NCBI RefSeq assembly: GCF_036320655.1
Contig: NZ_CP143258.1
Coordinates: 2,170,001 to 2,234,000 of the forward strand
DNA from: Porphyromonas pogonae
GTDB taxonomy: Bacteria; Bacteroidota; Bacteroidia; Bacteroidales; Porphyromonadaceae
Reading direction: 5' to 3'
Length of the DNA stretch: 64,000 nt
The notes below the pieces were generated by a model that was not told the DNA's origin, did no database searches, and saw only the letters and a list, made by a program, of their open reading frames with translations. Each line of letters opens with the position of its first letter. Position 1 is the stretch's first letter. Below, piece by piece: positions 1 to 22,398 of the stretch. The position numbers and the translations under genes were made by a program.

Positions 1-519
1 CTCGAACAAGGAATTTTCCGCTCTTACTTTCTCAACTAAAATAAAGGCTCCACCATCTACCAAACCTTTGTAAATACGTTGCACCACTTTCTTTCTTTTC
101 CATAGTGGAAGGAATTGCAAGGTGTACAAAGAAAGGACCAGATCAACATTGGTAAACTCATTGATATCCTCAATCCCCTGCTGTAAAAACTGTACGTCAT
201 CGCCAATACATTTAGTTCGGGCCGCTTCAATCATAGAGATGCTTTCCTCCACTCCTATAAACCTAACATTCTTTTTTCGGGCATGCTTGCGCAATAACAA
301 GGATATTGTCTCACCTGTGGACGAACCCAAATCATAGATAGTGCTATTATCTCTGATAAACCATTCGCTCATCTCTATCACAGCCTTTTGTACCTCTTCG
401 TACAGAGGAACGCTTTTGCGCACATGACTATCAAAACTTTGCGATACCTGTGCGTCGAATTTCCATTCACCGGGAACAGAAGTAATCAACTGATCTACGG
501 ATCCTTTATTATTTTCCAT
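1..519 (-). CDS. CmoA-like SAM-dependent methyltransferase (partial, runs off left edge)
   Basis: The reading frame is open from an ATG at 519 to the window edge, giving 173 codons with the C-terminus missing. Residues 61-70 (IYDLGSSTGE) are the class I SAM-binding motif. The later LVLSLYTLQFLPLWKRKKVV and GGAFILVEK segments closely resemble CmoA, the carboxy-SAM synthase family. CmoA acts in tRNA wobble-uridine modification in gammaproteobacteria, but a CmoA-like protein behind a peptide synthetase locus may instead methylate or carboxymethylate a small molecule; that is inference. The start lies inside the end of the upstream membrane-protein gene (11-bp overlap), so the two are probably translated from one mRNA. 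Confidence 0.8.
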   Translation of the reverse strand, partial: MENNKGSVDQLITSVPGEWKFDAQVSQSFDSHVRKSVPLYEEVQKAVIEMSEWFIRDNSTIYDLGSSTGETISLLLRKHARKKNVRFIGVEESISMIEAARTKCIGDDVQFLQQGIEDINEFTNVDLVLSLYTLQFLPLWKRKKVVQRIYKGLVDGGAFILVEKVRAENSLFE

Positions 520-1318
520 ATTTGTATTTATTTTTTGAAGTATAGATTATTGCCAAGAAACTCAACGCAATCATAAGAAGAACGTACGATAGGAATAGAT
601 TGGAAAAACACACCAGAGGACTGCTCCACACCAAAAAACCAATGAAATAGATTGGCAAAAAGCACGTAACTGCTATAGAGAAATTATTATAATAAGAGAA
701 TTTGTTACTGAGGAAATAAACGATGATCGATGAGAATGCCATGAAACCGCTAATCAGCCCAAAAGTATATCGATCGAATGGCAAGGTCGAGTTATAAGGG
801 ATCTTAGAGAGGACTTGCCATGCCTGCTTAGGAAAAATAACACTGAAAAAATTGAGAAATAACAAGAAAGCAATTACTCTAAACAGAGGGGTGACTATTT
901 TTAATGATCGAGGCTGCATAGGATTACCTTTGATCCCCTTATTGAGATAAAACATAAGTCCTCCTACCACAAACCATATAAACGGTTCGTACTGGGATGA
1001 AATATTGTCTAAATGAGTACGCACTTTGAGCCAGTACATAAATATGCCCATAAAACCTATCAGAAATGATGCAATCCGAGTAATGGGTTTGTATTTATCC
1101 AAGTTAGTCAAATACAAAAAATAAATACAAAAGAATCCGAAAAACAGGCATTGCTGACGAAAAAGAATCATAGTCACAGATGAGAATTCCATATCGTCTA
1201 CATAGGTCTTCAGACTATTTGCTCCCAAGAATATCCAAGGAAAGCCTGTAAAGCAAGCTATAGCACACAACCATAAGATGATTGTAAGGATGCGTCGTAT
1301 TATTAATATCGATGTCAT
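509..1318 (-). CDS. Polytopic membrane protein, unknown function
   Basis: A 269-aa, strongly hydrophobic protein with about seven to eight predicted membrane segments, beginning with an N-terminal helix at residues 5-30 and ending in a lysine-rich tail. I recognise no catalytic or transport motif. It overlaps the methyltransferase gene by 11 bp and is separated from the reductase gene upstream by 343 bp that hold a 22-bp-period repeat array, so it may start a separate transcription unit. A role in exporting or processing the product of the neighbouring synthetase is possible but unsupported by any motif. Confidence 0.7.
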   Translation of the reverse strand: MTSILIIRRILTIILWLCAIACFTGFPWIFLGANSLKTYVDDMEFSSVTMILFRQQCLFFGFFCIYFLYLTNLDKYKPITRIASFLIGFMGIFMYWLKVRTHLDNISSQYEPFIWFVVGGLMFYLNKGIKGNPMQPRSLKIVTPLFRVIAFLLFLNFFSVIFPKQAWQVLSKIPYNSTLPFDRYTFGLISGFMAFSSIIVYFLSNKFSYYNNFSIAVTCFLPIYFIGFLVWSSPLVCFSNLFLSYVLLMIALSFLAIIYTSKNKYKYGK

Positions 1319-1466
1319 ATAAATTATTATTTATGCACTTCAACAAGCACATGAGGCGATGCCGGAGTTTTGGAGTAGAAAATTATGTTTTTTGGTTGTT
1401 CGGATATTGAATGATGTGAATAAAAATCAACAATAAATCAGGATCACAACATCGCAGAAACAAACC

Positions 1467-1578
1467 ATTATTTTCTTAGTTAGGCTTTGTTATTTTCTTA
1501 GTTAGGCTTTTTGATTTTGCTAGTTAGAAAAATTTAAAAGCCTAGTTAGGAAAATAATGAAACATAGTTAGGAAAATA
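1467..1578. repeat. 22-bp-period array 1: five TAGTTAG cores
   Basis: The heptamer TAGTTAG starts at 1477, 1499, 1521, 1543 and 1565, exactly 22 bp apart. The first two copies read TTATTTTCT-TAGTTAG-GCTTT; the last two are flipped, AAGCC or ACA-TAGTTAG-GAAAATA, so the array has inverted symmetry around the middle copy. It fills much of the only sizeable gap (1319-1661) in this gene cluster. The rest of the gap shows no gene. Two turns of B-DNA per repeat suggests a protein-binding array, or a BrickBuilt/MITE-like repeat as described in Porphyromonas; neither is proven. Confidence 0.85.
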
Positions 1579-1661
1579 CGCCCTACGTTTTTTTACAAAA
1601 ATTAAACTCAATAACAGGGGGATTTAACACTAGGCTATTTATACAATACTACTCATTTCTC

Positions 1662-2804
1662 TTATGTACTATGGGCAATATTCCACTTAAAAATATGATT
1701 GTCTCCGATATGCTCCTCTGTAAGACTATATTCTTTCAAGGTTTTCATAAATGCGCAACAATCTATGGCATCACAAGCATAATGAAGCCCGGCAGCAACC
1801 TTGTCATGACACATTTGCTCAAAAATAATAGCAGAGGGCAATGCCGTAAACATCAAATTATCTACTGTATATAAAACAAATCTTTGAGGATCAGATATAG
1901 AATCTTCCGAATCAAACCATTCACAAAATACCCCACCCCATACTTTTTGCTTTTTTACAAGTCGCTCATAATCATTCCTAAGTATTTGGGTAGCACTATC
2001 AGGATCTTTCCTTTTGAATATACTCAAATAACAGAATTTCATCATAGACATGTAGTCGTTCATAATCACAAAGGATGAAATTTCTTTTAGTTGATGGCTT
2101 TTCACGGCCATGGTTGACAATTGATCATCAAACATGGGAAAACATCTTTTTTTACCTGGAAGAAACTCAAACTTCCTTTGATGTACGGAACGAGTAAAAG
2201 ACAGAGGTTTCTTTGCTCCATAGGCATAAATATAGGACGATGTTTTTCTCATTGATGAGACAGCCAAGTCATAACAGGAACTGTATGACCACGTATCTAC
2301 AGCACCAAAATACATACGGAATATGCCCTTTGATGAAGCACCAAGATAGGTATCCATTATATATTTCGAAAATATCCCTGAGATACCGGGCATCCAACCT
2401 GCACCTATGATAAAGCACAGGTTCTTTTCCCGAATATCTTTTTCATATTTCTGCATAGATTGGTAGAGAATATCATAGCCTCCTACATCAATATAGTGGC
2501 ATCCGCATGCCAATGCTTGTAAAGCGATAAGATTTCCTTGTTTTAGAGAGGGTCCTGAGACATTGATGACCAATGAGCATCGATTGCAAAAGGCCTGCAA
2601 ATCCGAATGTCTTTCGCAATTCATAGATTGATACGATACATTGGGACCAAACTCTGCCTTTACAGTTTCACCAGCAATACTTCTTCTACCGCCAATGAGT
2701 AGTTTATTATCAGCCAGTAAAGGAGTCAGTTTTTGTAGCATCAGACGACCTACTGATCCCATACCTCCTATTACTCCTATATATTTTTCAAAATGCATAC
2801 TCAT
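1662..2804 (-). CDS. Saccharopine-dehydrogenase-like NAD(P)-dependent oxidoreductase (second of pair)
   Basis: A 380-aa protein with an N-terminal Rossmann fold: GVIGGMGSVGR at residues 10-20 is the dinucleotide-binding loop, and VINVSGP plus HYIDVGGYD match the saccharopine dehydrogenase NADP-binding domain. The first codons overlap the stop of the preceding gene (ATGA, 2801-2804), so the two reductases are translationally coupled. The C-terminal two thirds show no motif I recognise. Known members reduce or oxidise imines of amino acids. Next to a peptide synthetase the likely job is reducing an imine or carbonyl of a peptide intermediate, but the substrate is unknown. The pair are distant paralogues and could form a heterodimer. 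Confidence 0.75.
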   Translation of the reverse strand: MSMHFEKYIGVIGGMGSVGRLMLQKLTPLLADNKLLIGGRRSIAGETVKAEFGPNVSYQSMNCERHSDLQAFCNRCSLVINVSGPSLKQGNLIALQALACGCHYIDVGGYDILYQSMQKYEKDIREKNLCFIIGAGWMPGISGIFSKYIMDTYLGASSKGIFRMYFGAVDTWSYSSCYDLAVSSMRKTSSYIYAYGAKKPLSFTRSVHQRKFEFLPGKKRCFPMFDDQLSTMAVKSHQLKEISSFVIMNDYMSMMKFCYLSIFKRKDPDSATQILRNDYERLVKKQKVWGGVFCEWFDSEDSISDPQRFVLYTVDNLMFTALPSAIIFEQMCHDKVAAGLHYACDAIDCCAFMKTLKEYSLTEEHIGDNHIFKWNIAHST

Positions 2805-3904
2805 TGTTTTATTATATTCAAACCAAAACTCTGTAATAAACTTTGCAATACAGTAAGATCGAGAGAAAGATCGTCAAAAGACGAAACTACAGAGTTCATA
2901 GATATTTGACCTCTTAGCAGCATCACCACAATAGCCGCACAAAAAGCTCCCGTCAATTCAAAAGAAGATGCAGCCGTAAGCGAAACACTTCTTTTGTTTA
3001 TACCATCCGCAACTTGGGCATTTACCAATACAATTCGTTCATTCCATTTATTATTAGCTAGGTCTTGCTGTTGTTTATATGCCATGTTGCGACACCAATT
3101 ATTCACCCAGACATATTTTCTCGAAAGATAAATGAGCCATTTAGGAAAATTTTGCAAATGAAATGCAGCATCAAAATCTTTTAGATTTTTGAATGTCTGA
3201 TTGTGTCTTAATGTAGCAACTTCAGGAGAGGAAAAATAGGTTAAAGAAACCTTCTGATGCTCAGGATCGAAGCTAAATTTGGTACTTCTTTTGTATTTAC
3301 CAGGCTTCACGACCAGACTTTGCCCCTGTGACAGTACTATCAAACGATTCCTAAAAGCATGAAACATATTGTCAATAGAAGCCTTACCTGATCTTACTCC
3401 CGCTCCAAAATACAATCTTATCCCAGCTTCCAAAGTAGCATCCATAAATTCAATAGCAGCAATATGAAGCATCAAAGAAGTCAAACCCGGACAGAGTCCC
3501 ATTCCTGTCAATACTCTCCCTTGCGGATTTGAAGGCGACATAGAGGATAAAACAGATAGTTTTTCCAAATGCTCGTATTCATCATTAATATCAATACAGA
3601 CAATTCTGTTTTTGAGACAAATCCTATATATGTCCAGTCCTACAGAAAAGAAAGGGCCTAAGGCAAGTATTATAATGTCGAACATTTTCAAAGAATCTTC
3701 ACATTCATTAGCCTGCAAAAGATCCAGCTTCATGTAAGCAACATCAGGATGACTCTCTGATGGAATAACACCTCTGGAAGCTATAGTAATATCGCAAAGA
3801 TGAAAGAAATTGGATAAATGATTCAAAATACATTTACCTGCAACCCCCGTACCTCCGATGAGTAAGACTTTACTTTTTTGCATCACGGAGTTTTCTTTTA
3901 TCAA
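2801..3904 (-). CDS. Saccharopine-dehydrogenase-like NAD(P)-dependent oxidoreductase (first of pair)
   Basis: A 367-aa protein; VLLIGGTGVAGK at residues 13-24 is the Rossmann dinucleotide-binding loop, followed by ITIASRG, IIILALGPF and VCIDINDEYEH, the order seen in saccharopine dehydrogenase family proteins. Met8 (3883) is an equally good start, because the annotated ATG lies 35 bp inside the upstream membrane-protein gene. The stop overlaps the next reductase by 4 bp. It resembles its neighbour in layout but not closely in residues. Its substrate cannot be read from the sequence; tailoring of the synthetase product is the contextual guess. Confidence 0.75.
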   Translation of the reverse strand: MIKENSVMQKSKVLLIGGTGVAGKCILNHLSNFFHLCDITIASRGVIPSESHPDVAYMKLDLLQANECEDSLKMFDIIILALGPFFSVGLDIYRICLKNRIVCIDINDEYEHLEKLSVLSSMSPSNPQGRVLTGMGLCPGLTSLMLHIAAIEFMDATLEAGIRLYFGAGVRSGKASIDNMFHAFRNRLIVLSQGQSLVVKPGKYKRSTKFSFDPEHQKVSLTYFSSPEVATLRHNQTFKNLKDFDAAFHLQNFPKWLIYLSRKYVWVNNWCRNMAYKQQQDLANNKWNERIVLVNAQVADGINKRSVSLTAASSFELTGAFCAAIVVMLLRGQISMNSVVSSFDDLSLDLTVLQSLLQSFGLNIIKQ

Positions 3905-4529
3905 TGTATAAATAGCATATTAAAATATATGCAGTAACAGACAGGCTGAAAATACACGGTTGTAAAGGGGTAAATATTGCAGGGCATATACGGCCTAATA
4001 CCCATAGCAACAAGGTGAGAACTACAGGGTTTATTACAATGGTCCAAACCGGGATAATAGATTTCTTTGACAAAGACATCAAGCCAATAATAATCCATGA
4101 CAAGGGAAGCAAGATAAACATGAAGGGATTGAAAGGAGCATTGATACTATTGAGCAAATCCCAGTCTCCCGGTAAAATGCGGGAAGAAAAGGCTCCCACA
4201 CGATCAATAACAATGTAACTGTAATGATAAAAGCTAAGCATCAATAAAGCGTATACAATGCAAATACTGATAATCAAAGAAAGATTCTTATTGACAAAAA
4301 TACCGGCCTTATATACAAATACCATACCTGCTATCCAAGAAGGAAACATAAATATGCAACCATAAGAAGCAAGATTAAGAATCGTTTGATCCAAAGTCAA
4401 GATACGAGATACAAAATATGATGTCTCTGTTGTAGTCATCTGCACCAAATAATCACATATCGAAATAAATACTCCAGCAAGGATGCTCATAACTATTATG
4501 AAGCGATAAAAGTGTCTTTTACTATCCAT
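3870..4529 (-). CDS. Six-helix membrane protein, unknown function
   Basis: A 219-aa hydrophobic protein with about six membrane segments (approximately residues 8-30, 45-65, 82-105, 130-152, 160-178 and 188-208) and basic ends (MDSKRHFYR, DKRKLRDAKK). I see no transporter or enzyme motif. It overlaps the first reductase gene by 35 bp, which points to coupled translation and a shared role. A strong hairpin lies between this gene and the DUF4374 gene upstream, so its expression may be lower than, or separate from, the uptake genes. Confidence 0.7.
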   Translation of the reverse strand: MDSKRHFYRFIIVMSILAGVFISICDYLVQMTTTETSYFVSRILTLDQTILNLASYGCIFMFPSWIAGMVFVYKAGIFVNKNLSLIISICIVYALLMLSFYHYSYIVIDRVGAFSSRILPGDWDLLNSINAPFNPFMFILLPLSWIIIGLMSLSKKSIIPVWTIVINPVVLTLLLWVLGRICPAIFTPLQPCIFSLSVTAYILICYLYIDKRKLRDAKK

Positions 4530-4549
4530 ATTTGAGAATTTATCTGATC

Positions 4550-4581
4550 TTGGTCAAAAACATTTTACTGTTTTTGACCAA
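4550..4581 (-). terminator. Hairpin after the DUF4374 gene
   Basis: TTGGTCAAAAAC (4550-4561) and GTTTTTGACCAA (4570-4581) form a perfect 12-bp stem with an 8-nt loop in the 61-bp gap after the lipoprotein stop codon. There is no long U-tract afterwards, so it may attenuate or protect mRNA rather than terminate fully. Confidence 0.55.
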
Positions 4582-4590
4582 GATTGATTG

Positions 4591-5769
4591 TTAATCCAGA
4601 TGAGATATCATATAAGGAGCCCCTTCGGTCTTGATCTTGAGAGGTTCATAAGTATTCTTTTGAGCATTATAGACATAGTAACCGGTACCCTGATCTGAAG
4701 CCATCCCGAAAATAACGTCATCACCAGAGATTCCTACGGAAGCAGCCCAACCGGGTGTCCTACCGAATTCCATTCTCTTCACAGTCTTATTGTAAACATC
4801 GATTTCAAACGGTTGCATAGATTTGTCTTTGACATAATCAGGCGGATTGCTCGCATAACCCGGTATATTAAGGAAGCCATATACCTTGCCGTTTTTCCAA
4901 TATACTTTGGTATATATATAAGATGCGTTCTTGCCCGAAGTACCTTCCAATGCAATATTTTTAATAGGGAAATAATAAGATTTATCGAACTCTGTCTGCC
5001 CCTTTTGAATTCTCAGAAATCCCTCATTAAGGGCTGGATTATATCCAAACATACCTACACAATATAAATAAATATCCCCTTTTTCATCAATAAAGAAACT
5101 TCCTTCAGTAGAATAGGAAGAAGCCATGGTAGCTCTATCATCTTTGATCATCTTGATTGGTTTGTCTTTCTCAGTATCAATAACAGCAACATATGCTCCG
5201 GCTTCAGGGTTAAATTTCCCCTTGTCCTGAATAAGCCCCACATATAAGATATTGTCACGAATAATTGCCACTCCGGGCTCAGGGTTTTTATCATTATTAA
5301 CAACTCCCGTAGAGTAGGATGAGAGGTCGATCTCTCCTGTCTTGGTCATAGTAGAAGGATTGATAATGATGATCTTACCCAAACCTATGCAAGAAACATA
5401 TGCTTTTGTCTCCGACTTAAACGTAATAAAAGAAGCAAGGGCTCCTGAAGGGAAAGTCATGGTTTCGCCCTCCTGTTTGAGAGTTCCGTTTACGACTGTA
5501 TACTTATAAAGTCGCTCTGTATTTGACACATAAACCTTACCCTTATAAGCAAAAGAGAAAGCTCCTTTATTGAACACTTGTGAGTTTGCGGTCTGTGTCT
5601 GCTTTACATTAAGATCTTTGAATAAGCTTACATACGTATTATCCCCAACATTCACGCTGTGTACAAAATGCATACGCCCACTATCGGGTAATGGTTCCGA
5701 ATTGTTTTCCTTACATGAGGTACAGAATACGGCTAGCAAAGTAGCCATCATAAATACTGCTTTTTTCAT
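4591..5769 (-). CDS. DUF4374 beta-propeller-type lipoprotein, XusB-like
   Basis: A 392-aa lipoprotein: signal peptide with lipobox ending in Cys19 (AVFCTSC). The body is made of repeated short beta-type segments (KVYVSNTERLYKYTV, KAYVSCIGLGKIIIINPSTM, ILYVGLIQDK, DIYLYCVGMFGY, KVYGFLNIPGY) typical of a propeller. It fits DUF4374. The Bacteroides thetaiotaomicron member XusB is a surface siderophore-binding lipoprotein that works with the TonB receptor XusA. Here the gene follows a TonB receptor gene by 24 bp, the same arrangement. The inferred role is capture of a metal-peptide complex at the cell surface. The XusC PepSY partner is not seen. Family assignment is fairly sure; the ligand is not known. 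Confidence 0.75.
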   Translation of the reverse strand: MKKAVFMMATLLAVFCTSCKENNSEPLPDSGRMHFVHSVNVGDNTYVSLFKDLNVKQTQTANSQVFNKGAFSFAYKGKVYVSNTERLYKYTVVNGTLKQEGETMTFPSGALASFITFKSETKAYVSCIGLGKIIIINPSTMTKTGEIDLSSYSTGVVNNDKNPEPGVAIIRDNILYVGLIQDKGKFNPEAGAYVAVIDTEKDKPIKMIKDDRATMASSYSTEGSFFIDEKGDIYLYCVGMFGYNPALNEGFLRIQKGQTEFDKSYYFPIKNIALEGTSGKNASYIYTKVYWKNGKVYGFLNIPGYASNPPDYVKDKSMQPFEIDVYNKTVKRMEFGRTPGWAASVGISGDDVIFGMASDQGTGYYVYNAQKNTYEPLKIKTEGAPYMISHLD

Positions 5770-5793
5770 TGTTTAAATTATTTATAAGTTGAA

Positions 5794-8220
5794 CTACAAA
5801 CTCATTGCTCCTCCTGACGAATCGTCGCTGAACCAATTGAATCTTAATTTGATCTTAAAAGTGCGTCCTTGCAGAGGCTTCTTAAATTCCATGTAATGCT
5901 CTTTGTTGAAAATATTTTCCAACTCAACACCCAAGGATATTTTATTATCCCAAAATGATTGTTGGAAACCGGCTGTCATGATATGGCTGGCCGGAATAAG
6001 CCATTTTTGTCTTTGGTCGGGAAGATTACTCATCCTCCACGCCCAATCAAACTCATGCACATAAGAGGCATCGAAATAAATACGAGACAATTCCTTATGT
6101 CCTAAGAACCCTGAAGTATGATACTCAAGTCCGTAATTGAAATAGAATTGAGGGATATTGGGTACATGTTTATTATATGTAGGATTTTCGATGTTGTTGT
6201 TTTGGTTCTGCCATTTCATCTTATCCCGAATATCTTGGTAAGTTGTGTTGAAATATCCATAAATTTTAGGAGTAAAATCCATTTTCAAATCGCAATCAAA
6301 GCCTGCGATCTGTGTTTTTCCCAAATTAATGTAAGCCATACGCAAGTCTGCCGGGAAAAGACTTATCATATCACTGATATGCATATAATATAGATTTGCT
6401 TCTAATTGCATTCTATATAGACCAAGAAAGTTATTGCGATCTATTATCACCCCTCCATTGATATTATTACTAATCTCCGGTTTTAGATTTGTGGAGGGCT
6501 TGATGTTAATACCATCTCCAAAAAGTTCATGAGCTACCGGTAGCCTTACATTATGTGATAATGAAAGCTTGGCCCTAAGCCCTCTGATAAATTCCCAACT
6601 AATCCCATTACCAATGCTGTAATAAAAGTCATTGACATGTGTATTTTTCGGAATTATTTTAGTACCCTGCCCATCCTTGGTTATCTTATCAGCCGTATGA
6701 TAAATTTGGGAATTCATATAAAAAAGATTGAACATCAGGGAGTTTTGGATTCTGCTGTCTTTTGATGAATATTCATAAGCCAAACCTAATGCATTCCCTT
6801 TCATCTTGCTGGGAAAAACGCTGGGATCAAAGCCTAAATACTCTGCCATATAGCTGTCTCTGGGCTTATAATTGGAATAAGTAAACTGATTATTTAGATT
6901 GATAGTATGCCGGGAATTGATTTTATATTTAAGATTTAATTTATGTCTTGCTTCGAAAGTTCTATCATCAGACATATTAAAGATATTTTCAGGGGTTTCT
7001 CCAACGGCATTGATGACTGTACCATCCCATTGGCGTTTGGATGTTGCTGTATCTACAAGATGCGTATTGACAATAGGCAATACGAGAGAAGATTTCAGAT
7101 CTAAGCCCTTGAGGATAAAATTTTCTTTTTCAAGTTTGAAAGACGGCATTATATTGGATCCATAGGTATGAGCCCATTGAGAATCAAAATCCAACGCCTG
7201 TATTCCTTTCTTATTATTGTAGAATTCACACTCTAGCTCTACTTTATCGAACCAAAGTTTTGTAAAAGCCAATCCTAAATGATAGAAAGTGGAAGTATAA
7301 TAATCATTGTTTCGCCTAACTGTACGATATGCCGAAGGGGGCAAATTCGTCTCATAGATCGGGTATTTCATCTTGTAATTGTTATTGGACCGATTTCTGA
7401 AAAAGCCAAGACTAAGTTGTATACCCGGTTTTTCAAATATCTTTCGTCCGCTAACCAATGTTTTTGACGTGCCAAAAGAAGCAAACTCCTGCGTAAAACC
7501 TACCAAGTCGCACTCATCCTCACGAGTAACGACATTGATAGCACCTCCTAGCCCGTCGCTTCCGTATTCAGCAGGAACAATGCCTTTATATATCTCAATG
7601 TATTTGATAACATCAATGGGAATATCATTGATATCAAACGAACCGTCAGGACTGTTTAAAGGAAAACCATTGATATATACCGCTACGCGCTTCCCTTCCA
7701 ATCCATGTATAGAAATACGAGAAGAGCTACCCAAACCTCCCGTCTTTCTTACTTTTAGACCTGAAGCTCTGTTCAAGACCTCTTCTATGCCACTTGATCT
7801 TCCTCTCAATGCAGCTCCGTCTACCATAGTTACAGCCATAGGCCCCTTGCGTATTCTATTGATTTCAGCTTTTTGAGAAGACCCGCTTACAACGACTTCG
7901 TTTAGATCAAAAGAAGAACTCTCCAAAGAAAAGTTTTTTATAATGCTCTGATTGATGGTAATAGATCTTTTTACAGGTTTATAACCCAACAGAGATATCT
8001 CTACCTCATAAATCCCTTTTTGGGGAATTCTTATATTATAACTGCCGGTATGATCTGTATTGTCTCCGATATTACACTTTCTAATATATACGGAGGCTCC
8101 TGTGATAGGCTGTTTAGTATTTTTGTCTACTACATGTCCCGATAAAATAATTTGAGACCATGACAGTGTAGAAAAACATAGAACTCCGATAAAAAATAAA
8201 GCGAATTTTAATCTTTGCAT
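5794..8220 (-). CDS. TonB-dependent outer-membrane receptor, siderophore-type (XusA-like context)
   Basis: An 808-aa protein from Met8220; the upstream in-frame ATG at 8232 would add four residues ahead of the signal peptide. Order of parts: signal peptide (to about residue 23), carboxypeptidase-regulatory-like domain (LSGHVVDKNTKQPITGASV onward, to about 105), plug domain with VVVSGS near its start and RISIHGLEGKRVAVYINGFP, GAINVVTRE at the plug end, then a long beta-barrel. There is no SusD partner, so this is a siderophore, haem or cofactor receptor layout rather than a glycan one. The gene overlaps the phosphopantetheinyl transferase gene upstream and precedes the DUF4374 lipoprotein, linking uptake to synthesis. 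Confidence 0.88.
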   Translation of the reverse strand: MQRLKFALFFIGVLCFSTLSWSQIILSGHVVDKNTKQPITGASVYIRKCNIGDNTDHTGSYNIRIPQKGIYEVEISLLGYKPVKRSITINQSIIKNFSLESSSFDLNEVVVSGSSQKAEINRIRKGPMAVTMVDGAALRGRSSGIEEVLNRASGLKVRKTGGLGSSSRISIHGLEGKRVAVYINGFPLNSPDGSFDINDIPIDVIKYIEIYKGIVPAEYGSDGLGGAINVVTREDECDLVGFTQEFASFGTSKTLVSGRKIFEKPGIQLSLGFFRNRSNNNYKMKYPIYETNLPPSAYRTVRRNNDYYTSTFYHLGLAFTKLWFDKVELECEFYNNKKGIQALDFDSQWAHTYGSNIMPSFKLEKENFILKGLDLKSSLVLPIVNTHLVDTATSKRQWDGTVINAVGETPENIFNMSDDRTFEARHKLNLKYKINSRHTINLNNQFTYSNYKPRDSYMAEYLGFDPSVFPSKMKGNALGLAYEYSSKDSRIQNSLMFNLFYMNSQIYHTADKITKDGQGTKIIPKNTHVNDFYYSIGNGISWEFIRGLRAKLSLSHNVRLPVAHELFGDGINIKPSTNLKPEISNNINGGVIIDRNNFLGLYRMQLEANLYYMHISDMISLFPADLRMAYINLGKTQIAGFDCDLKMDFTPKIYGYFNTTYQDIRDKMKWQNQNNNIENPTYNKHVPNIPQFYFNYGLEYHTSGFLGHKELSRIYFDASYVHEFDWAWRMSNLPDQRQKWLIPASHIMTAGFQQSFWDNKISLGVELENIFNKEHYMEFKKPLQGRTFKIKLRFNWFSDDSSGGAMSL

Positions 8221-8819
8221 TGTATAAGACATAAGTTTATTAGGAATTGATTATGCAGAAATAATTGAAAATCAATTTTGTGAATATGTGACACACGAGG
8301 CGAAAGCACATCTAATTCTTTCCAATCACATAATTTATGATAAGCAGAGAAGAAAGCTTTGAAGAAAGCCTCCTTACGAGAAAAAATATTGATTGGAATT
8401 TGAGATTGGTTCCGGATATTTTGAATTTCATTATCTGTACAGAATAGCAAGCATTCTTTCTGAGATAGCTCTATAGATGCATCTTCAATATCCACACCTA
8501 CTCCAAGATAATCATCCTTATTTGCAACAACTGCAATGGCAATATTTTCTTTATGTGATATTGAACCCACAATATGTGCGGGCCATACGGGCTCACCATA
8601 TTGCCCTTTCAAAATGCTTTTGTTTTCAATTTTTAATCTTGATAAAGCCAACCGAGCAGCAATACGTCCTAAAATAAATGTTTTGAGTCTTGAAGCTGAC
8701 CATGAACTTTGCACAATCAGCTTTTCTCCCTCAGCTAAATCGCACATATCAGGGAAAAAATCATCAGCCAAAAGTATTGCCGACAAGCTTGGAGATAAAG
8801 GCAAAGAAAAACTATACAT
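8208..8819 (-). CDS. 4'-phosphopantetheinyl transferase (EntD/Sfp type)
   Basis: A 203-aa protein with the three hallmark motifs: GSISH (85-89), GVDIE (108-112, metal-binding Asp and Glu) and FSRKEAFFKAF (146-156). It would transfer phosphopantetheine from CoA to the carrier-domain serines of the synthetase encoded just upstream, with which it overlaps by 8 bp. GQYGEPVWP before the first motif matches the EntD-like substrate-loop region. Such a dedicated transferase is typical of siderophore and peptide clusters. The gene also overlaps the TonB receptor start, so synthesis and uptake genes form one operon. Confidence 0.9.
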   Translation of the reverse strand: MYSFSLPLSPSLSAILLADDFFPDMCDLAEGEKLIVQSSWSASRLKTFILGRIAARLALSRLKIENKSILKGQYGEPVWPAHIVGSISHKENIAIAVVANKDDYLGVGVDIEDASIELSQKECLLFCTDNEIQNIRNQSQIPINIFSRKEAFFKAFFSAYHKLCDWKELDVLSPRVSHIHKIDFQLFLHNQFLINLCLIQCKD

Positions 8820-11800
8820 TGGCTTTGGTAAATCGGATTACTGTTTGGGCAAGTTCGGCATGGTATTTATTAATAAGCACATGCCCTCCGGGTAGCTCAT
8901 TAAAATGAATTTCCTGAAAATAATCTTTCCATAATTCTTGATTCTCTCTGATTATGGGTTCTTCTTCACGTCCCACAATTGAGTATAAAGGTGTTTTGAG
9001 CTTGGTATTATGAAATTCATATTTTACCATAGCTTTGGTATTTACTCTAAGCTCATGAATGTATTCGAGCCTTTCATCTTCTGATAAAGTCGCTATCACC
9101 TCTTCATTGAGTAGTACTGCAGCTGCAGTGTAATCGGAAAGATTATCATCATCACCGGAAAAAAACTGCATCAGATCGTCTCTCAATGTCGGAGGTGTAC
9201 CTCCAATCATAATGACACCAGACAGAGAAGCCCCTTTCCCTTCCAATATTTTACAAATGTCATAGGCAATATAGCAGCTGTAGGAATAACCTAAGATAAA
9301 AAGAGGTACGTTATCTCTCAGCTTCTCAATTTCACTAACCAAAAGTAAAGACACCTCCTCGACTGTGCTTTTAAGATCTCTATCATCGCCATGTCCCGGA
9401 AATTGTGCTGAGTATAAGTCAACACCATCAATAAAATTACCCGCAAACACATTGTACATACCGGGTGTTCCGGCAGCGTATGGCAAACAAATCAGGCGGG
9501 CGTATGGATTATCAGACTTCTTAATACATACAATGTTTTCAACCTCTTCTTCTGATTTATTCCCTACTAAAAGCTCAATGGTTGGTTTTTCAAAAAGATC
9601 TTTGAGTTTGATATCAGTAAAACCAGCCTCTTTGAGCTCTTTGATCAATCGTACAGATCTAATCGAATCTCCACCTACTTCCCAAAAATTATCTTTTATG
9701 CTTACTTCAGGCAATCCCAAAACCTTCTTCCAGATATGAGCCATTGTTTCTTCATCATGATTTCTAGGCTCTATCACATTTCTCTTTATCAAGTTTTGCT
9801 TTAGGTCTGCGATATGGGGCAAAAGCTTTTTGTCCGTCTTGCCATTGGCTGATATAGGTATCTGCTGCAGTCTCATCATAGCAGAAGGAAGCATGAAATG
9901 AGGTATTTGGGCTTGTATTATCTGCATGATATATTTATCTTCTAAATCTATTCCTGTGGAAGAAACATAAAATGCCACCACTACAGGTTGCTTATTTATA
10001 TCATATTGAACATCAGCACAAGCTTCCGTAATTTCAGGTACACTCAGCATAGAGTTTTCAATCTCTCCCAATTCTATTCTATAGCCCTTTACATTTACTT
10101 GAAAATCTTTTCTCCCCACAAAAACAATATCTCCGGTCACAGTCATCTTCACCAAGTCCCCAGTGTTGTATACGATATCATTGTTATCTCCCGTGAGAGG
10201 ATTGGGGATAAAAACCGATTTGGTTTTCTCTTCCTTATTTAGATAACCGCATGCAACGCCCGCCCCTCCAATATATAATATACCGGGGACATCGGGCAAG
10301 GTACATTTGAGATCATCATTGAGAACATAGACCTGAGTATTGTATATTGGTTTGCCGATGGGTACAGTGGTTAAATGACATTTCCCGTCATTTTCGATGG
10401 GAATAGGGAAAAATGTAGAAGCTACTGTAGTTTCCGTAGGTCCGTATTCATTGATAAATCGATGTTGCGGATAATACTCAAGCCATCTGTTTATATCAGG
10501 GACATTGATGATCTCAGCTCCTAGCATCACAGTCATAACGGGAGACAAAGAGACCGGCCTTTCCAAGAAGCCCATTGTATTGACAAGCATAGAAAAATGC
10601 GAGGGTGTTACATTCAAAAAGTTGATACGCTTATCGTCAATAAAATGCAACAGGACCTCAATATCCTTAGTATCGTTATCAGACAAAATATGTAATGAAG
10701 CCCCGGAGATAAAAGGAAGCCAATTAGATGTTACAGTCATATCAAAAGAATATGATGTAATCAAGGCAAAACGTTTTTCACAATTGACCTCAAAAGCTTC
10801 TTTTTCATAATTCAAGAAATTAGAAACGTTGCAATGCCTCAACATCGTTCCTTTGGGTTGTCCCGTAGACCCCGAAGTGTATATCATGTAAATGAGATCT
10901 TCAGGAACTCCTTTTCTATCAACATCGTCTGTGGAGCACAACTCAATGTCCTTGTATGTGTATTTTACGTATAAGTCGGGCAATGTAACATTTTCTTGTT
11001 CGAGCAAGATGCAAGATTTAATTTTCGATGTTGCCGACTTATTTATATTTTCGACGTGAATCCCTTGAGTAATCAAGATCTCAGCACCACAGTCGTCTAT
11101 CATATATTTAATCCTATCAGAAGGGTACGAAGGGTCAATAGGAACATATGCCCCACCCGCAATCATAATTGCTAACTGTGCTATAGGTAAATCAATAGTC
11201 CTATTCAATAATAATACCACCTTAGCATTACTATCGACGCCCAATCCTCGCAGAAAACGAGCCATCTGATTGGCCTTACCCCAGAATTGTTTATAAGTCA
11301 AAGAAGTTTCTCCGAAGGAAACAGCTTCTCTATGGGGATATAATTTTACAATATCATGGATCTGTTCATGGATGCATCTGTAAGGATAAGCATGATGGGT
11401 TTTATTAACACATTCCAGCAAATCTTTGTATGAATTCGAAAGAATATCAGCGCATGATCGATCAGCTAAAGCCTGACAATTATCTTCAGCAACCAACTGG
11501 TTTAAGATCGAAGTAAGCTGATCCGAAAGTTGATTGATAAATTCAGAGTCAAACAACTCTCTGACATAATTCCAATCGAAACACCATTTCTCCTCCCAAG
11601 TATACATCACAAGATCTATGTAAGTTCCCGGAGCACCTGTTTGGACATAAGGGGCATTAATAATAAAGTTCTCCGAAGAACGGCTAATGCCAGAAGGAAG
11701 CATATTGATAGAGTTACTGAAAATAATGGCGCTGAGAGAACTTTGTTTCAGTCCTTCCTGCTCGGCAATCCTTCTCGAAAGATCGATAGATGAAATAGGA

Positions 11801-14800
11801 TACTCAAGCATGACACGAGCAAAGGTTTCTATCTTACGAGCTATAGCTATAATAGATTCTTGAGGAGATGTTTGGATGCGTACAGGGAATATATCCAGAA
11901 AACTACCTAAGATGTTTCTTGCTCCGGGTAAATGTTGCTCACGGTTGAAAACAGGCATATTGATAATAAGGTCATTCTGTCCCGACCACAAATTCATCAA
12001 CTTAAAATAACATGCCATCAATAATGAATTCAGGCAGATTCCTTCAGTATTATGCGCTATATCCAAAACCTTAATCATCAATTGAGGAGAAAGTTCGGTA
12101 TGCAAAGTATTGAAATGCACATCACCTATCAATGATGGCTTCTGCTTCATGGGAAGCGAGATTTTTTCCGGCAAATTTTTAAATATCTTCAAGGCGAAAT
12201 CCATGGCATTTTGATAACGCTTTGTTTGCCTTCTGAATCTCTCCACAAATACATATTCCGAGAAGTTGAGACCTTTTTCCGGTACACTCTTAGGCTTCTC
12301 ACCTTTCAAAAACAGATCGTATACAGAGGATAGCTCCTGAATAAACTGAAAGAAACTAAACCCATCTATAATTTGATGATCGAGATGAATTATCAATTCA
12401 TATTCATCTTCTCTTGTTTTATATACTTCACAATAAAAAAGAGGATATTTTTTTAGATCAAAACGATAATCATGAGTAGATACATCCTTGGCTTTGAAGA
12501 AATATTCCTGTTGCAATTTGCTCATAGAGCTTATATCTTCATATCGGGTCTTAAAAGCAGGGTAATTCGGTAAGGTTATCATTTCAGGATTATCGGATTC
12601 TTCCCAAAGCACAGAATGTAATAAAGGATGACAAGAAATAAGGTAATTCAATGTTTCGTCCAAAACGGGTACGTCAAATCTCCCTGATATATGGGCTCTA
12701 CAAATTATGTAACAACTAAGCCCCGTAGGTTCATTACGAATAAAACTTTTACTGTGATAAAATAGAGTCTCCTGAAAATCCATCAAAGGAAAAGATTGCC
12801 CCTGATCGCTGTAATAACGCATCTTGATTGTACCTGCGATGTCTCTTACAGTGCTTTTGTCCTGAATATCATCCAATGCTATACGGTCAAAGACTTCTGT
12901 AATTTTCAACATCACTTTATGGACTGTAGCAAAAGATGTAGCTTTGGAAATAAATGATTCTGTATAATTCAAATCCTCAAACGGAATACAAAGTTCCTCA
13001 CAGATAAACTCTCGTACCAACATTTCATATTCATTTGCAGGAGATTGTATATCTGTGGTAAATAATTTCTCAAAATATTCTATTTGTGAACCTAACAAAG
13101 GATATTTATAAAAAAAGCTATTTTCAAGCTTTATGTCTAGTCTCTCTTCTATTGCAGACACCGCAACAACGCTTCTGATAGAGTCACCCCCAAGAGCAAA
13201 AAAGTTGTCTGTTAATTTTATTTCGGAAGAGATTTCCAACGCTTTATTCCATATCCCCTGTAATAAGTTCTTATAGTCCATATTTTGGTTTTTATTTTTT
13301 TGTGCAATAATAAAATCAGTATATTTCCCTTGCTCAAAATACTGTGCCATGGCTCTACGCATTATTTTGGAGCTTGAGGTTTTGGGAATATCTCCCTTTT
13401 TGATATTCATGGTTACTTCTGGCATAAAGCCGACTTTTTGTAAAAGAAAGTCATTGCAATCATCTGCCAAATGTGCCAATTGTACATCAGATAGGTTGGT
13501 AGACGAAATAAGGAAATGAAGCACAATCTCACGCTTTTCCTCTTGAGAATAAAAGGATGTAAAAACAGATTTTTCTATATGAGAAGAAAATCTATCAAGA
13601 ATACATGACTCCAGATCGAAGGGGTGATAATTTTGCCCATTGACAATGATAACTTCCTTCTTTCGCCCCACGATATACAAGATATTATCAGAGTCTAAAA
13701 AACCTAGATCTCCCGTACTGAGCCATCCATCATGCAAAACTTCCGCAGTAGCAACATCATTGTTATAGTACCCTTTCATCACGCAATCACCTCTTACTTG
13801 TATTTCACCTAATACCATGGGTGCCTGCTCAATCGTACCACCATCCGTAATGCGCATTTCCAATCCCGGTAGAATTTGGCCTGCGCTCACAAATTCGCAA
13901 AAAGACTCTCGCCCAGATGCCAATCGGATTATATCTTTATAAAATAGATCACGGTTGATTCGGATTGTTTTATCTCCTTGTCCCGGTGTAGTTGTAGATA
14001 TAATCAATGTAGTCTCGGCCATACCATACCCAGGTCGAAAGGCAGCTCTATCAAGTCCTAACCTGAATAGTGGGTCCAAACCTGCATACAAATTAGAGGG
14101 CACCATTTCGGCCCCTATAGAAAGGGTTTTTACTGTGGATAAGTCGTAGTCATAATCAATACCATCATGCCTACTCATCTTACTTATCAATATTTCTAAT
14201 CCGGAGGGAGTAGTACCTCCACAAATAGTAACCTTGTAATCAGTTATCTTACGTAAATAAATGAGTGGATCTCGTAAATAAGTAAATGGTTCTATTTTGA
14301 TTTCCGTAATACAATTATATACGGACAAGAGATGATTGCCAAACAAACCGTAATCATGATAATAAGGCATCCAATGAATAAGGATATCATCAGAAATAAT
14401 ATTGTCCGCCATAGTTTTCATCCTTAGGTTTGTAATAATATTTTTACTGCTAAGCATTACCCCTTTGGGACAGCCGGTACTACCGGAAGAGAACTGTACC
14501 ACAACCAATTCATCCTCCTCCGTATCGTTGGGATATAAGGGTAGAAAATCATTCTGAATTTCAGCTTGGTTAATAACCTCTCCGGCATAGAAGGCATCCT
14601 TATTATGATTCTGGTATTCCTGAACCAATTCTCTATCACTAGATATAAGAATGGCAGAGTCCAAAAACCGAAAGGCATTCTTTAACCTCTCACAAGCAAT
14701 ACCTTTTTTATCTTTCTGCAGCACCGAAGGCATTAGTACAGGTACGCAACGAGCCATTACACTAGCCCAAAAAAGTAAAATGAAATCTGCAGACGTGTCT

Positions 14801-14985
14801 ACGGAAACTATTATCTTGGATTTTGGCTTAATATTTAAATCTCGCACTAATACATGTGCTATTTTACAGCTCTTAAAATATAATTCTTTGTATGAAAGGA
14901 AAAGATCTTGTTTACCATGATTGACTACTATAAGACCTTTTTCCGGAGTGTTTATTGCTGCTTCGTGTAATAAATTAATTAGCAT
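8812..14985 (-). CDS. Nonribosomal peptide synthetase: FAAL-PCP-(degenerate carrier)-C/Cy-A-PCP-TE
   Basis: A 2057-aa multidomain enzyme. Residues 1-560 are a fatty acyl-AMP ligase-like domain (SSGSTG 166-171, WMPYYHDYGLFG 205-216, GQNYHPFDLE 450-459). A carrier follows with Ser602 in GGDS. Residues 650-720 look like a second carrier in which GGDS is replaced by KATS (Ser684). A condensation domain spans about 728-1165 with DHQIIDGFS at 869-877, which fits the heterocyclization pattern DxxxxDxxS while keeping the condensation His870. Then come adenylation (SGSTG 1371-1375, FDMTV 1414-1418, NEYGPTETT 1512-1520), a carrier with Ser1774, and a thioesterase (GYSYS with Ser1901, His2035). It probably joins one acyl or aryl acid to one amino acid and releases it. 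The amino acid was not predicted. Confidence 0.92.
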   Translation of the reverse strand: MLINLLHEAAINTPEKGLIVVNHGKQDLFLSYKELYFKSCKIAHVLVRDLNIKPKSKIIVSVDTSADFILLFWASVMARCVPVLMPSVLQKDKKGIACERLKNAFRFLDSAILISSDRELVQEYQNHNKDAFYAGEVINQAEIQNDFLPLYPNDTEEDELVVVQFSSGSTGCPKGVMLSSKNIITNLRMKTMADNIISDDILIHWMPYYHDYGLFGNHLLSVYNCITEIKIEPFTYLRDPLIYLRKITDYKVTICGGTTPSGLEILISKMSRHDGIDYDYDLSTVKTLSIGAEMVPSNLYAGLDPLFRLGLDRAAFRPGYGMAETTLIISTTTPGQGDKTIRINRDLFYKDIIRLASGRESFCEFVSAGQILPGLEMRITDGGTIEQAPMVLGEIQVRGDCVMKGYYNNDVATAEVLHDGWLSTGDLGFLDSDNILYIVGRKKEVIIVNGQNYHPFDLESCILDRFSSHIEKSVFTSFYSQEEKREIVLHFLISSTNLSDVQLAHLADDCNDFLLQKVGFMPEVTMNIKKGDIPKTSSSKIMRRAMAQYFEQGKYTDFIIAQKNKNQNMDYKNLLQGIWNKALEISSEIKLTDNFFALGGDSIRSVVAVSAIEERLDIKLENSFFYKYPLLGSQIEYFEKLFTTDIQSPANEYEMLVREFICEELCIPFEDLNYTESFISKATSFATVHKVMLKITEVFDRIALDDIQDKSTVRDIAGTIKMRYYSDQGQSFPLMDFQETLFYHSKSFIRNEPTGLSCYIICRAHISGRFDVPVLDETLNYLISCHPLLHSVLWEESDNPEMITLPNYPAFKTRYEDISSMSKLQQEYFFKAKDVSTHDYRFDLKKYPLFYCEVYKTREDEYELIIHLDHQIIDGFSFFQFIQELSSVYDLFLKGEKPKSVPEKGLNFSEYVFVERFRRQTKRYQNAMDFALKIFKNLPEKISLPMKQKPSLIGDVHFNTLHTELSPQLMIKVLDIAHNTEGICLNSLLMACYFKLMNLWSGQNDLIINMPVFNREQHLPGARNILGSFLDIFPVRIQTSPQESIIAIARKIETFARVMLEYPISSIDLSRRIAEQEGLKQSSLSAIIFSNSINMLPSGISRSSENFIINAPYVQTGAPGTYIDLVMYTWEEKWCFDWNYVRELFDSEFINQLSDQLTSILNQLVAEDNCQALADRSCADILSNSYKDLLECVNKTHHAYPYRCIHEQIHDIVKLYPHREAVSFGETSLTYKQFWGKANQMARFLRGLGVDSNAKVVLLLNRTIDLPIAQLAIMIAGGAYVPIDPSYPSDRIKYMIDDCGAEILITQGIHVENINKSATSKIKSCILLEQENVTLPDLYVKYTYKDIELCSTDDVDRKGVPEDLIYMIYTSGSTGQPKGTMLRHCNVSNFLNYEKEAFEVNCEKRFALITSYSFDMTVTSNWLPFISGASLHILSDNDTKDIEVLLHFIDDKRINFLNVTPSHFSMLVNTMGFLERPVSLSPVMTVMLGAEIINVPDINRWLEYYPQHRFINEYGPTETTVASTFFPIPIENDGKCHLTTVPIGKPIYNTQVYVLNDDLKCTLPDVPGILYIGGAGVACGYLNKEEKTKSVFIPNPLTGDNNDIVYNTGDLVKMTVTGDIVFVGRKDFQVNVKGYRIELGEIENSMLSVPEITEACADVQYDINKQPVVVAFYVSSTGIDLEDKYIMQIIQAQIPHFMLPSAMMRLQQIPISANGKTDKKLLPHIADLKQNLIKRNVIEPRNHDEETMAHIWKKVLGLPEVSIKDNFWEVGGDSIRSVRLIKELKEAGFTDIKLKDLFEKPTIELLVGNKSEEEVENIVCIKKSDNPYARLICLPYAAGTPGMYNVFAGNFIDGVDLYSAQFPGHGDDRDLKSTVEEVSLLLVSEIEKLRDNVPLFILGYSYSCYIAYDICKILEGKGASLSGVIMIGGTPPTLRDDLMQFFSGDDDNLSDYTAAAVLLNEEVIATLSEDERLEYIHELRVNTKAMVKYEFHNTKLKTPLYSIVGREEEPIIRENQELWKDYFQEIHFNELPGGHVLINKYHAELAQTVIRFTKANV

Positions 14986-15325
14986 TCAGGTTTTGTTTTT
15001 AACAAATTTCCTGATTGTTGCCTTAATACACAATACCAATGAATATGTATTTAAAACAGACGAGATCTATTAATCAGTAAAATATAAAAACGTATAAATC
15101 AATACATAATACCAGCCAAAACTTGCGATAAAAGAACACCAAAGCAAACCCGTTCTTTTATAAAGGACAGAAAACACTGTTCTCTGTACCTACATATTAT
15201 TAATGGAAATATGCATTTTAAATGAGATAAAACAGTTCTGGGGAAGAAATACTCCTATGCAGACATGATAATGGCATTGGGGATCAATAATAACCATTAA
15301 TCTTTTTGCTCCCAACTTGTATCCC
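14986..15325. other. Leader region upstream of the synthetase operon
   Basis: This AT-rich stretch must hold the promoter of the synthetase operon on the minus strand, but I find no good TTTG/TAnnTTTG pair. TGATAAT at 15266-15272 is half of a Fur-like site only. No gene, tRNA or convincing riboswitch is visible. Confidence 0.5.
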
Positions 15326-15459
15326 ATATTTTTCTAACTAGGTTTTAATATTTTTCTAACTAAGCTCCGATATTTTCTTAACTAGCAATTTCAAAATCCC
15401 TAGTTAGAAAATTATTAAAACCTAACTAGAAAAATAATGAAGGGTAACTAAGAAAATAA
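15326..15459. repeat. 22-bp-period array 2: six TAACTA/TAGTTA cores
   Basis: The hexamer TAACTA (or its complement TAGTTA) starts at 15335, 15357, 15379, 15401, 15423 and 15445, every step exactly 22 bp. The first three copies are preceded by ATATTTTTC or TATTTTCT; the last three are followed by GAAAATTATT, GAAAAATAAT or AGAAAATAAG, so the array is an inverted repeat around about 15393. It matches array 1 at 1467-1578 in core, period and flanks, and sits between the synthetase operon and the cytolysin-like gene. Confidence 0.87.
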
Positions 15460-19352: not shown

Positions 19353-19354
19353 AC

Positions 19355-21433: not shown

Positions 21434-21459
21434 AATATCACTCTTATAATCAATTATAA

Positions 21460-22398
21460 CTAAATTTCAGCATCAATCTTATAACTATGGACATGCCATC
21501 CATTAATATATATCTGAGCAATGATATACTTGCCATTGACATCAGCTGCCGTAAGTACTAAGTCAAAATCATGTACACAATCCAGATTTATATTAGTTAT
21601 ATGATTTTTCAAGAGAATAATCCCCACTAAATCATGATTGAAAATTTCTAACCCGGTCTTTTTATTTGTAATAATAATACGACTGTTATGACCCGTCTGT
21701 AATTTCAATATCCCCAGCTTAGTTACAGACATGCCATTTTGAACGTTTGCCTGCTTGGGATACAGCATGGGTAAATTTTCCTTGATAAGTGTACCATCCA
21801 GAGCATAAGATGTATTATCAGAAAGGACTGCGATTTCATAATCTTCGGGATTTATTACCCCTTCCAATCTTATATTTATCCTATTGGTAAGCTCTTTTAA
21901 GTTGATTGAGACCTTATTTTCCATAAAAGAAGGATCATCTTTCAACACATTGAATGATTTACTTTCCCCAACAAACATATTCAAACTGATCAATCGCTCA
22001 AAAGCAGTGATGGTTCTGTTTAATTTTATATACAGATCCTTCTTAGTAGTCTTGCCCGGAACACAATCAGTAATTAAAAATATATTTGAAACACCTGCCC
22101 ACGCGACTAACGAGTACTTACCCTCCTTGACACTGATAGGAAAAGAAAATGAAGGGGAAAGTGTAATATTGTTGAGGTTATAAGAACTGACCAAAATATC
22201 ATCTTTATCAAAAACAAAAAGCTTGATATCCCTTATTTGCTCAGGATAGGTAGGTTCGGATTGACATATAGTTTGGGACATAAAAGATACGTCTATCTCT
22301 TGCAAACAACGATCCGTATCATCGTACAACCAAGAATCGCAACTCTGGAATCCACATGCCATGATGAAGAAAGCCAGAAAAAGTATCTTTTTTTTCAT
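21460..22398 (-). CDS. FimB/Mfa2-family fimbrial anchor lipoprotein
   Basis: A 312-aa lipoprotein with CGFQSCDSWLYDD at the lipobox region, a sequence pattern typical of FimB/Mfa2 proteins, followed by IRDIKLFVFDKDDILVSSY and GKYSLVAWAGVSN, the shared core of this family. FimB and Mfa2 anchor fimbriae in the outer membrane and limit their length in Porphyromonas gingivalis. It directly follows the Mfa1-like gene by 61 bp, the same order as mfa1-mfa2. The C-terminal half has no separate recognisable domain. Confidence 0.8.
   Translation of the reverse strand: MKKKILFLAFFIMACGFQSCDSWLYDDTDRCLQEIDVSFMSQTICQSEPTYPEQIRDIKLFVFDKDDILVSSYNLNNITLSPSFSFPISVKEGKYSLVAWAGVSNIFLITDCVPGKTTKKDLYIKLNRTITAFERLISLNMFVGESKSFNVLKDDPSFMENKVSINLKELTNRINIRLEGVINPEDYEIAVLSDNTSYALDGTLIKENLPMLYPKQANVQNGMSVTKLGILKLQTGHNSRIIITNKKTGLEIFNHDLVGIILLKNHITNINLDCVHDFDLVLTAADVNGKYIIAQIYINGWHVHSYKIDAEI

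Follow-up and report, generated by a model that had tools for sequence, protein, structure and literature searches.

A peptide synthetase cluster with a built-in XusB-like uptake pair in gut and oral Bacteroidales: a candidate metallophore pathway

The window analysed here is a stretch of 64,000 nucleotides from Porphyromonas pogonae (positions 2170001-2234000 of a 2.92 Mb single-contig genome with a completeness of 99.99%). Its left end carries a minus-strand gene cluster that combines a nonribosomal peptide synthetase (NRPS) with a TonB-dependent receptor and a DUF4374-like lipoprotein. The cluster runs leftward from position 14985 and extends beyond the left edge of the window. Its features within the window are as follows (ORF, open reading frame; aa, amino acids):

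15032..15051, no strand: inverted repeat AATACCAATGAATATGTATT, a candidate operator 46 bp before the synthetase start (11 of 12 positions of AATACC-N8-GGTATT)
8812..14985, minus strand: synthetase, 2057 aa (ORF and family hits)
8208..8819, minus strand: 4'-phosphopantetheinyl transferase (PPTase; 4PPT_N and ACPS hits)
5794..8232, minus strand: TonB-dependent receptor with an N-terminal carboxypeptidase-like domain (CarbopepD_reg_2, Plug and TonB barrel)
4591..5769, minus strand: DUF4374-like lipoprotein, a XusB-like beta-propeller, probably surface-exposed (family hit, model, signal peptide by eye)
3870..4529, minus strand: small membrane protein (ORF; DUF6796 matched by its relatives)
2801..3904, minus strand: reductase 2, NAD(P)-binding, weakly saccharopine-dehydrogenase-like (family scan)
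1662..2804, minus strand: reductase 1, whose closest solved relatives are carboxyspermidine and saccharopine dehydrogenases (family scan, profile comparison)
509..1318, minus strand: large membrane protein without a family (ORF, family scan)
1..519, minus strand: CmoA-like methyltransferase, cut by the window edge and whole (268 aa) at L004:15713-16519 (family scan, flanking DNA)

An earlier note on this DNA had described one minus-strand run of these genes, and all those that it named are indeed complete minus-strand ORFs, except the methyltransferase, which is complete in the flanking DNA. Its statement that many of them overlap holds, by ORF coordinates, for five junctions (synthetase/PPTase, 8 bp; PPTase/receptor, 25 bp; small membrane protein/reductase 2, 35 bp, with an unsure TTG start; the two reductases, 4 bp; large membrane protein/methyltransferase, 11 bp) and fails for three, which are gapped by 24 bp (receptor/DUF4374), 61 bp (DUF4374/small membrane protein) and 343 bp (reductase 1/large membrane protein, 1319-1661). 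The synthetase is matched by AMP-binding (twice), PP-binding (twice), Condensation and Thioesterase families. Sacchrp_dh_NADP matches one reductase at 36.3 bits (cut-off 25.1) and the other at 21.9 bits, below the cut-off; the DUF4374 hit, at 18.1 bits, is under the Pfam cut-off of 25. The window copies of the two membrane proteins gave no Pfam hit. Left of the window, the cluster adds a PEMT-like membrane methyltransferase and a leucine-carboxyl-methyltransferase-like (LCM) protein, its last gene. A DAHP synthase/chorismate mutase gene (L004:13087-14172, minus strand) lies 6 bases further on; the stretches compared for the other clusters showed no such gene.

The same gene set, mostly in the same order, recurs in seven other Bacteroidales genomes and is therefore more than a chance assembly. 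The carriers are Phocaeicola massiliensis DSM 17679, Bacteroides pyogenes DSM 19673, Prevotella veroralis DSM 19559 and four metagenome-assembled genomes (MAGs), namely the Bacteroidaceae MAG RUI502, a Tannerella MAG, the Porphyromonadaceae MAG UBA8128 and the Bacteroidales MAG RUG12352. A scan of 84,980 species' genomes with two patterns, hence a lower bound, found at least seven loci. The synthetase, both reductases and both membrane proteins are present in all eight clusters (the UBA8128 synthetase ORF begins at a contig end and is split in two; the small membrane protein of Tannerella, without a BLAST match, is counted as a DUF6796 member). The receptor is likewise found in eight of eight; in Tannerella, where it is 50% identical to that of the window, it has moved to a place after the ATP-binding cassette (ABC) pair and an LCM-type gene, and the contig ends before the gene does. 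The DUF4374 gene accompanies it in seven, the contig of the eighth cluster (Tannerella) ending inside the receptor; the only DUF4374 match of that MAG is weak and lies on another contig. These counts support synthesis and uptake genes as one inherited unit.

Other members are less constant. The PPTase gene adjoins the synthetase in five of the eight clusters, has another place within the cluster or at its end in Tannerella and RUI502, and was not seen in the RUG12352 cluster. A close CmoA-like methyltransferase (76-79% identical to that of the window) is present in five other clusters; UBA8128 has only a distant one (22-25%), and none was seen in the Tannerella cluster. An ABC pair occurs in seven clusters, the window's being the exception; P. 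veroralis, Tannerella and UBA8128 have diverged versions (35-43% identity to B. pyogenes). By ORF calls, the reductase 1 and large membrane protein genes overlap in B. pyogenes, P. massiliensis, P. veroralis, RUI502, UBA8128 and Tannerella, and are 81 bp apart in RUG12352.

The distribution is scattered. Outside the window genome, reductase 1 has one strong match (E = 6.8e-96) in a 393-genome sample of the order, where the next-best match (2.6e-10) covers part of the protein. Reductase 2 reaches E = 1e-12 in two of 395 genomes of a phylum sample, its own included, and the condensation region occurs in three of 201 genomes of the family to which reductase 1's strong match belongs, that genome included. 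Among the matches listed for 25 same-genus genomes, none is the synthetase; these matches (E = 8e-18 or weaker) are short adenylation-type stretches of 71 to about 215 residues. On one side of the P. veroralis cluster lie topoisomerase, DUF4099/DUF3945 and N6-methylase genes, and on the other genes for MobC, a relaxase and a YWFCY/TraG-type coupling protein; a conjugative element probably carries it as cargo. Upstream of the P. massiliensis cluster are a transposase and a NikA-like mobilisation gene. This scattered distribution, with mobility genes beside the cluster, points to horizontal spread. A transposase-like gene (by eye; L051:18687-19901, minus strand) also stands in P. massiliensis on the opposite strand between the DUF4374 and small membrane protein genes.

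The synthetase can be divided as follows (aa positions):

1-555 (approximately): acyl-AMP ligase, FAAL-like
574-637: first carrier
640-730 (approximately): degenerate second carrier-like stretch
731-1167 (approximately): heterocyclisation-like condensation domain
1205-1722 (approximately): amino-acid adenylation domain
GGDS at about 1771: last carrier
1830-2049: thioesterase

The nearest relatives of the condensation domain are heterocyclisation (Cy) domains, the kind that serves in making oxazoline/thiazoline metallophores and that carries DxxxxDxxS instead of HHxxxDG; the motif D-H-Q-x-x-D-G-x-S is invariant in all eight condensation domains. By profile comparison, reductase 1 is nearest to two enzymes that act by C=N reduction, carboxyspermidine dehydrogenase (E = 1e-12) and saccharopine dehydrogenase (5e-12); reductase 2 is too diverged to be placed. 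The CmoA-like enzyme and the adjoining prephenate-side gene (DAHP synthase/chorismate mutase) suggested a carboxy-S-adenosylmethionine route, in which carboxymethylation would supply extra metal ligands. This route was rejected because Arg199 of CmoA, the carboxylate-binding residue according to passages of PMC3663124, is replaced by Ser or Ala in six of six cluster proteins, and because the DAHP gene was not seen in the compared stretches elsewhere. The CmoA-like methyltransferase is the best-conserved cluster protein (mean pairwise identity of 82% in six clusters versus 62% for the synthetase in eight), despite being absent or replaced in two clusters. An LCM methyltransferase of P. veroralis (L182) that has the repeat upstream was tried as the missing part of that cluster; it is only 33-36% identical to four cluster copies and is for this reason not claimed as such.

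The modelled DUF4374-like protein is a seven-bladed beta-propeller lipoprotein whose fold is closest to the siderophore-binding XusB of B. fragilis, at about 19% sequence identity. By eye, Cys is followed by Lys-Glu after the signal peptide, and the protein is probably surface-exposed. As in the XusABC system of Bacteroides, in the passages of PMC13142918, a DUF4374 beta-propeller lipoprotein thus adjoins a TonB receptor with a carboxypeptidase-like N-terminal domain, the closest counterpart being the hookless B. fragilis XusB. Unlike XusABC, the pair lies inside a biosynthetic cluster in which no PepSY inner-membrane partner was found, and the lipoprotein is far from XusB in sequence and under the DUF4374 cut-off. 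The cluster receptors form one clade, apart from the two other Xus-type receptors of the window genome, which belong to two further DUF4374/TonB pairs (L005:3269-6912 and L006:1789-5462). Both pairs are candidates for ordinary xenosiderophore uptake, and one has a TetR-like gene (by eye) upstream. A DUF4374 tree that includes two long-branch paralogues does not resolve the cluster clade. UBA8128 encodes a second DUF4374 protein (G1012:C290:144-1271), 46% identical to that of the window and intermediate between the cluster and the other copies.

Among the ABC proteins, the first one of RUG12352 was compared with the PDB. Its single-chain half-transporter hits (among 60 of 280 hits) are led by YbtP (331 bits), IrtA (269) and MsbA (256); full-length P-glycoproteins outscore YbtP and IrtA, over two stretches. 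YbtPQ and IrtAB import metallophores, and their makers also use Cy domains. The window genome encodes elsewhere an ABC pair 35-36% identical to this RUG12352 protein.

The inverted repeat AATACC-N8-GGTATT stands, at 11 or 12 of 12 positions, at the synthetase promoters of the window, B. pyogenes, P. massiliensis and RUI502, with a post hoc score reached by none of 1000 first-order shuffles in each case (seven promoters were compared, that of UBA8128 being left out). A genome-wide search allowing at most one mismatch, with the reversed pattern as control, found more sites than control matches in all four genomes searched (window genome, 20 versus 5; P. veroralis, 24 versus 10; P. massiliensis, 28 versus 19; B. 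pyogenes, 16 versus 9). Ten of the 20 sites are intergenic in the window genome (two of the ten are borderline and are placed inside ORFs by the other count) and 14 of 24 in P. veroralis. Against a non-coding share of 15%, the binomial p is 2.5e-4 for the window genome, a value that applies to 10 of 20 and not to 8 of 20 sites, and 1.3e-6 for P. veroralis; against 25%, it is 0.014 and 5e-4, respectively. A similar ORF rule puts the non-coding share at 12% for the window and at 19% for 20 P. veroralis stretches.

In the window genome, intergenic sites adjoin the genes of the synthetase, a flavodoxin, a TonB receptor and a lipoprotein with weak cupredoxin similarity. Further ones lie between a PepSY_TM gene located elsewhere in the genome and an alpha-L-fucosidase gene, at an outer-membrane protein gene that leads a same-strand run containing HmuY, between a diffusion-facilitator-like gene (by eye) and a glycosyltransferase-like one, and beside thiamin-pyrophosphokinase-like and symporter-like genes (by eye); one more site has no ORF near. 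The only perfect repeat of this genome adjoins a cation-diffusion-facilitator-like gene (by eye). A perfect site stands at P. veroralis feoAB, and a 10/12 site (2.2% of shuffles) at the second feoB of the window genome. Four of the 14 P. veroralis intergenic sites have no ORF near; five of the other ten lie beside feoAB, TonB-like receptors (L127, L175, L176) and an ABC binding protein (L170), the last four classified by eye, and the remaining five flank seemingly unrelated genes. One P. veroralis site precedes a GTP cyclohydrolase I-like gene (by eye). Of the five P. massiliensis intergenic sites, two belong to the synthetase promoter and another stands before a possibly hemerythrin-like gene (by eye). 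The only perfect intergenic copy found in P. massiliensis and in B. pyogenes is that of the synthetase promoter. A putative iron-type regulon is thus supported in two genomes (the window's and P. veroralis) and unsupported in two (P. massiliensis and B. pyogenes). A Fur box of the E. coli type was also tried; its best matches upstream of seven synthetases were reached by at least 28% of shuffles. The passages of PMC4222909 and PMC10913741 contain no published iron operator.

Taken together, the cluster is probably an iron metallophore pathway as judged from sequence, and we consider it fairly probable that its carriers make the metallophore themselves and recapture it with a dedicated system, that iron is the most likely metal and that the pathway has spread horizontally. 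Upon iron shortage, a repressor, probably of the Fur family, would leave the inverted repeat at the synthetase promoter. The acyl-AMP ligase would load a carboxylic acid, probably fatty, onto the first carrier, and the adenylation domain would put a beta-nucleophile amino acid (Thr, Ser or Cys) on the last one; the Cy-like domain would join both and close an oxazoline or thiazoline ring before release by the thioesterase. C=N reduction may then fall to the two reductases, and methylation of the product to two or three methyltransferases. Finally, the surface lipoprotein would catch the loaded metallophore and hand it to the TonB receptor, as XusB does to XusA, and in most carriers the ABC pair would serve for inner-membrane crossing, in the direction suggested by YbtPQ and IrtAB. 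The window's copy would, on this reading, have lost its ABC pair or use the distant paralogue elsewhere in the genome. A bolder version is possible, and we hold it only tentatively: gut and oral Bacteroidales would make a new class of siderophore (acyl-capped, single-ring oxazoline/thiazoline, methylated and reduced), its genes moving between genera on conjugative elements and the XusB-like lipoprotein and receptor serving self-siderophore uptake.

What the earlier note had proposed beyond the gene order, namely linked synthesis and uptake and an XusB-like lipoprotein, agrees with these data; receptor and DUF4374 genes standing only beside unrelated neighbours, which it had named as fatal to its idea, are not what the genomes contain. 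Its suggestion of a home-made metallophore is partly supported, by the linked unit, the fold and a repeat common to iron and heme genes of the window genome, and not by a known chelator pathway among the cluster proteins scanned or a PepSY gene in the window's cluster.

Several observations weigh against a self-made iron metallophore. Of the ordinary motif, the condensation domain retains Gly and the second His; in all eight clusters Ser replaces the Thr of aligned Cy domains, the Asp being retained; Thr and Asp are the catalytic residues of Cy domains. By sequence, some proven Cy domains, those of HMWP2, Irp2 and PchE, score below ordinary C domains. The adenylation code (in GrsA numbering) is not a standard Cys, Ser or Thr code. 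The solved starters nearest to the acyl-AMP ligase also include McyG and a keto-acid-type module, so that a non-fatty starter is possible. By itself, one oxazoline or thiazoline carboxylate would be a weak ligand. None of the eight chelator pathways by which passages of PMC12971057 define NRP metallophores (e.g., catechol, salicylate, hydroxamate, hydroxy-Asp/His) was found in Pfam/NCBIfam scans, which covered the cluster proteins and not the rest of the genome; by these scans, and not by antiSMASH itself, the NRPS lacks beside it the chelator pathway of the antiSMASH rule. The same source describes NRPS-made oxazol(id)ine/thiazol(id)ine chelators as undetectable without many false positives. 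The scans also found no PepSY (XusC-type) gene among the window's cluster proteins. Over seven clusters, synthetase distances correlate modestly with those of the receptor (r = 0.55) and poorly with those of the DUF4374 protein (r = 0.29), and strict co-divergence is for this reason not claimed. As to the repeat, the promoters of P. veroralis, Tannerella and RUG12352 reach only 9 of 12 positions, as do 8-18% of shuffles, so that three of the seven are no better than shuffles. The repeat was first spotted by eye, which makes the promoter statistics post hoc and the genome-wide count the fairer test. In that count, only 5 of 28 sites are intergenic in P. massiliensis and 2 of 16 in B. pyogenes (p = 0.41 and 0.72), which is no promoter enrichment, and the repeat is not a general iron marker in these two genomes. 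It was not found at five of the seven feoB genes tested. Iron, heme or TonB genes by family stand at four of the nine non-synthetase intergenic sites of the window genome, a figure given without a background rate for random intergenic sites.

The strongest competing explanation, still an unlikely one in our view, is that the cluster makes a lipopeptide which iron starvation induces and which serves another purpose (as a signal, antibiotic, surfactant or redox lipid), the receptor pair importing a foreign siderophore or reimporting the product for self-protection or sensing. The lack of a chelator pathway among the cluster proteins scanned would fit, as would the two other DUF4374/TonB pairs of the genome; passages of PMC12746155 give other roles to N-acyl amides and doreamides of gut bacteria, and in those of PMC13142918 Xus pairs elsewhere import foreign siderophores. 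However, the receptor stays with the synthetase in eight of eight clusters, the rearranged one of Tannerella included, the cluster receptors stand apart from the other Xus-type receptors of the genome, and a Cy-like domain and a YbtP-like transporter travel with them. Rather improbable is that the repeat is a mere local promoter feature, or the site of a cluster-specific regulator, without metal meaning, which would leave the link between synthesis and uptake real and metal control coincidental. P. massiliensis and B. pyogenes, without promoter enrichment and with their perfect intergenic copy at the synthetase, behave in this manner, but sites outnumber the reversed pattern in all four genomes, and in two of them they are enriched in promoters and have iron and heme genes beside them. 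A metallophore for zinc, copper or another metal is quite improbable: metallophores of the same ring type are known for other metals, and the diffusion-facilitator-like and GTP cyclohydrolase I-like neighbours would suit one, but the neighbours tied to one metal by family hit (flavodoxin, HmuY operon, PepSY_TM, feoAB) are of iron or heme.

The iron metallophore reading can be set against known systems. The Cy-like domain, thioesterase, separate reductases, methyltransferases and TonB receptor, together with an ABC pair whose tested member is nearest to YbtP/IrtA, recall the yersiniabactin, pyochelin and mycobactin type. Unlike these, the cluster shows no salicylate pathway, starts with an acyl-AMP ligase, has one amino-acid module, and includes saccharopine/carboxyspermidine dehydrogenase-family reductases and a surface lipoprotein. 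With FAAL-started lipopeptide synthetases it shares the N-terminal acyl-AMP ligase, a carrier, one module and a thioesterase, but its condensation domain is Cy-like rather than of the starter-C type, and receptor and transporters are linked to it. Acylated amino-acid-type chemistry in gut Bacteroidota, a possible outcome here, is described in passages of PMC12746155 for the glsAB doreamide lipids of B. dorei, where glsAB are two genes without such a synthetase.

Gut and oral Bacteroidales are regarded as non-producers living by heme and stolen siderophores. Marine members of the group probably make siderophores, so the claim is confined to the gut and oral ones; no description of the cluster was found in the open-licence PMC literature. 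If the metallophore reading is right, DUF4374 pairs would be more than piracy tools, their lipoproteins gaining a second role, and iron competition in gut and mouth would have to be read differently. The pathway would belong to a class that chelator-based mining would probably miss, and the three culture-collection carriers (the P. massiliensis, B. pyogenes and P. veroralis strains) make a possibly iron-regulated synthesis-plus-uptake directly testable.

The viral contig set gave no match. On the other side of the cluster promoter, a lipoprotein-type gene adjoining the cluster (15644-17341, minus strand) matches Pfam Thiol_cytolysin at 79 bits (cut-off 25) and is followed by fimbrial-type genes of the FimA and Mfa2 families at 17598-22398. 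Between the promoter and the cytolysin-like gene, positions 15326-15436 hold three 22-nt direct repeats of the ATATTTTTCTAACTAGGTTTTA type and a pair of 36-nt inverted arms that are 92% complementary.

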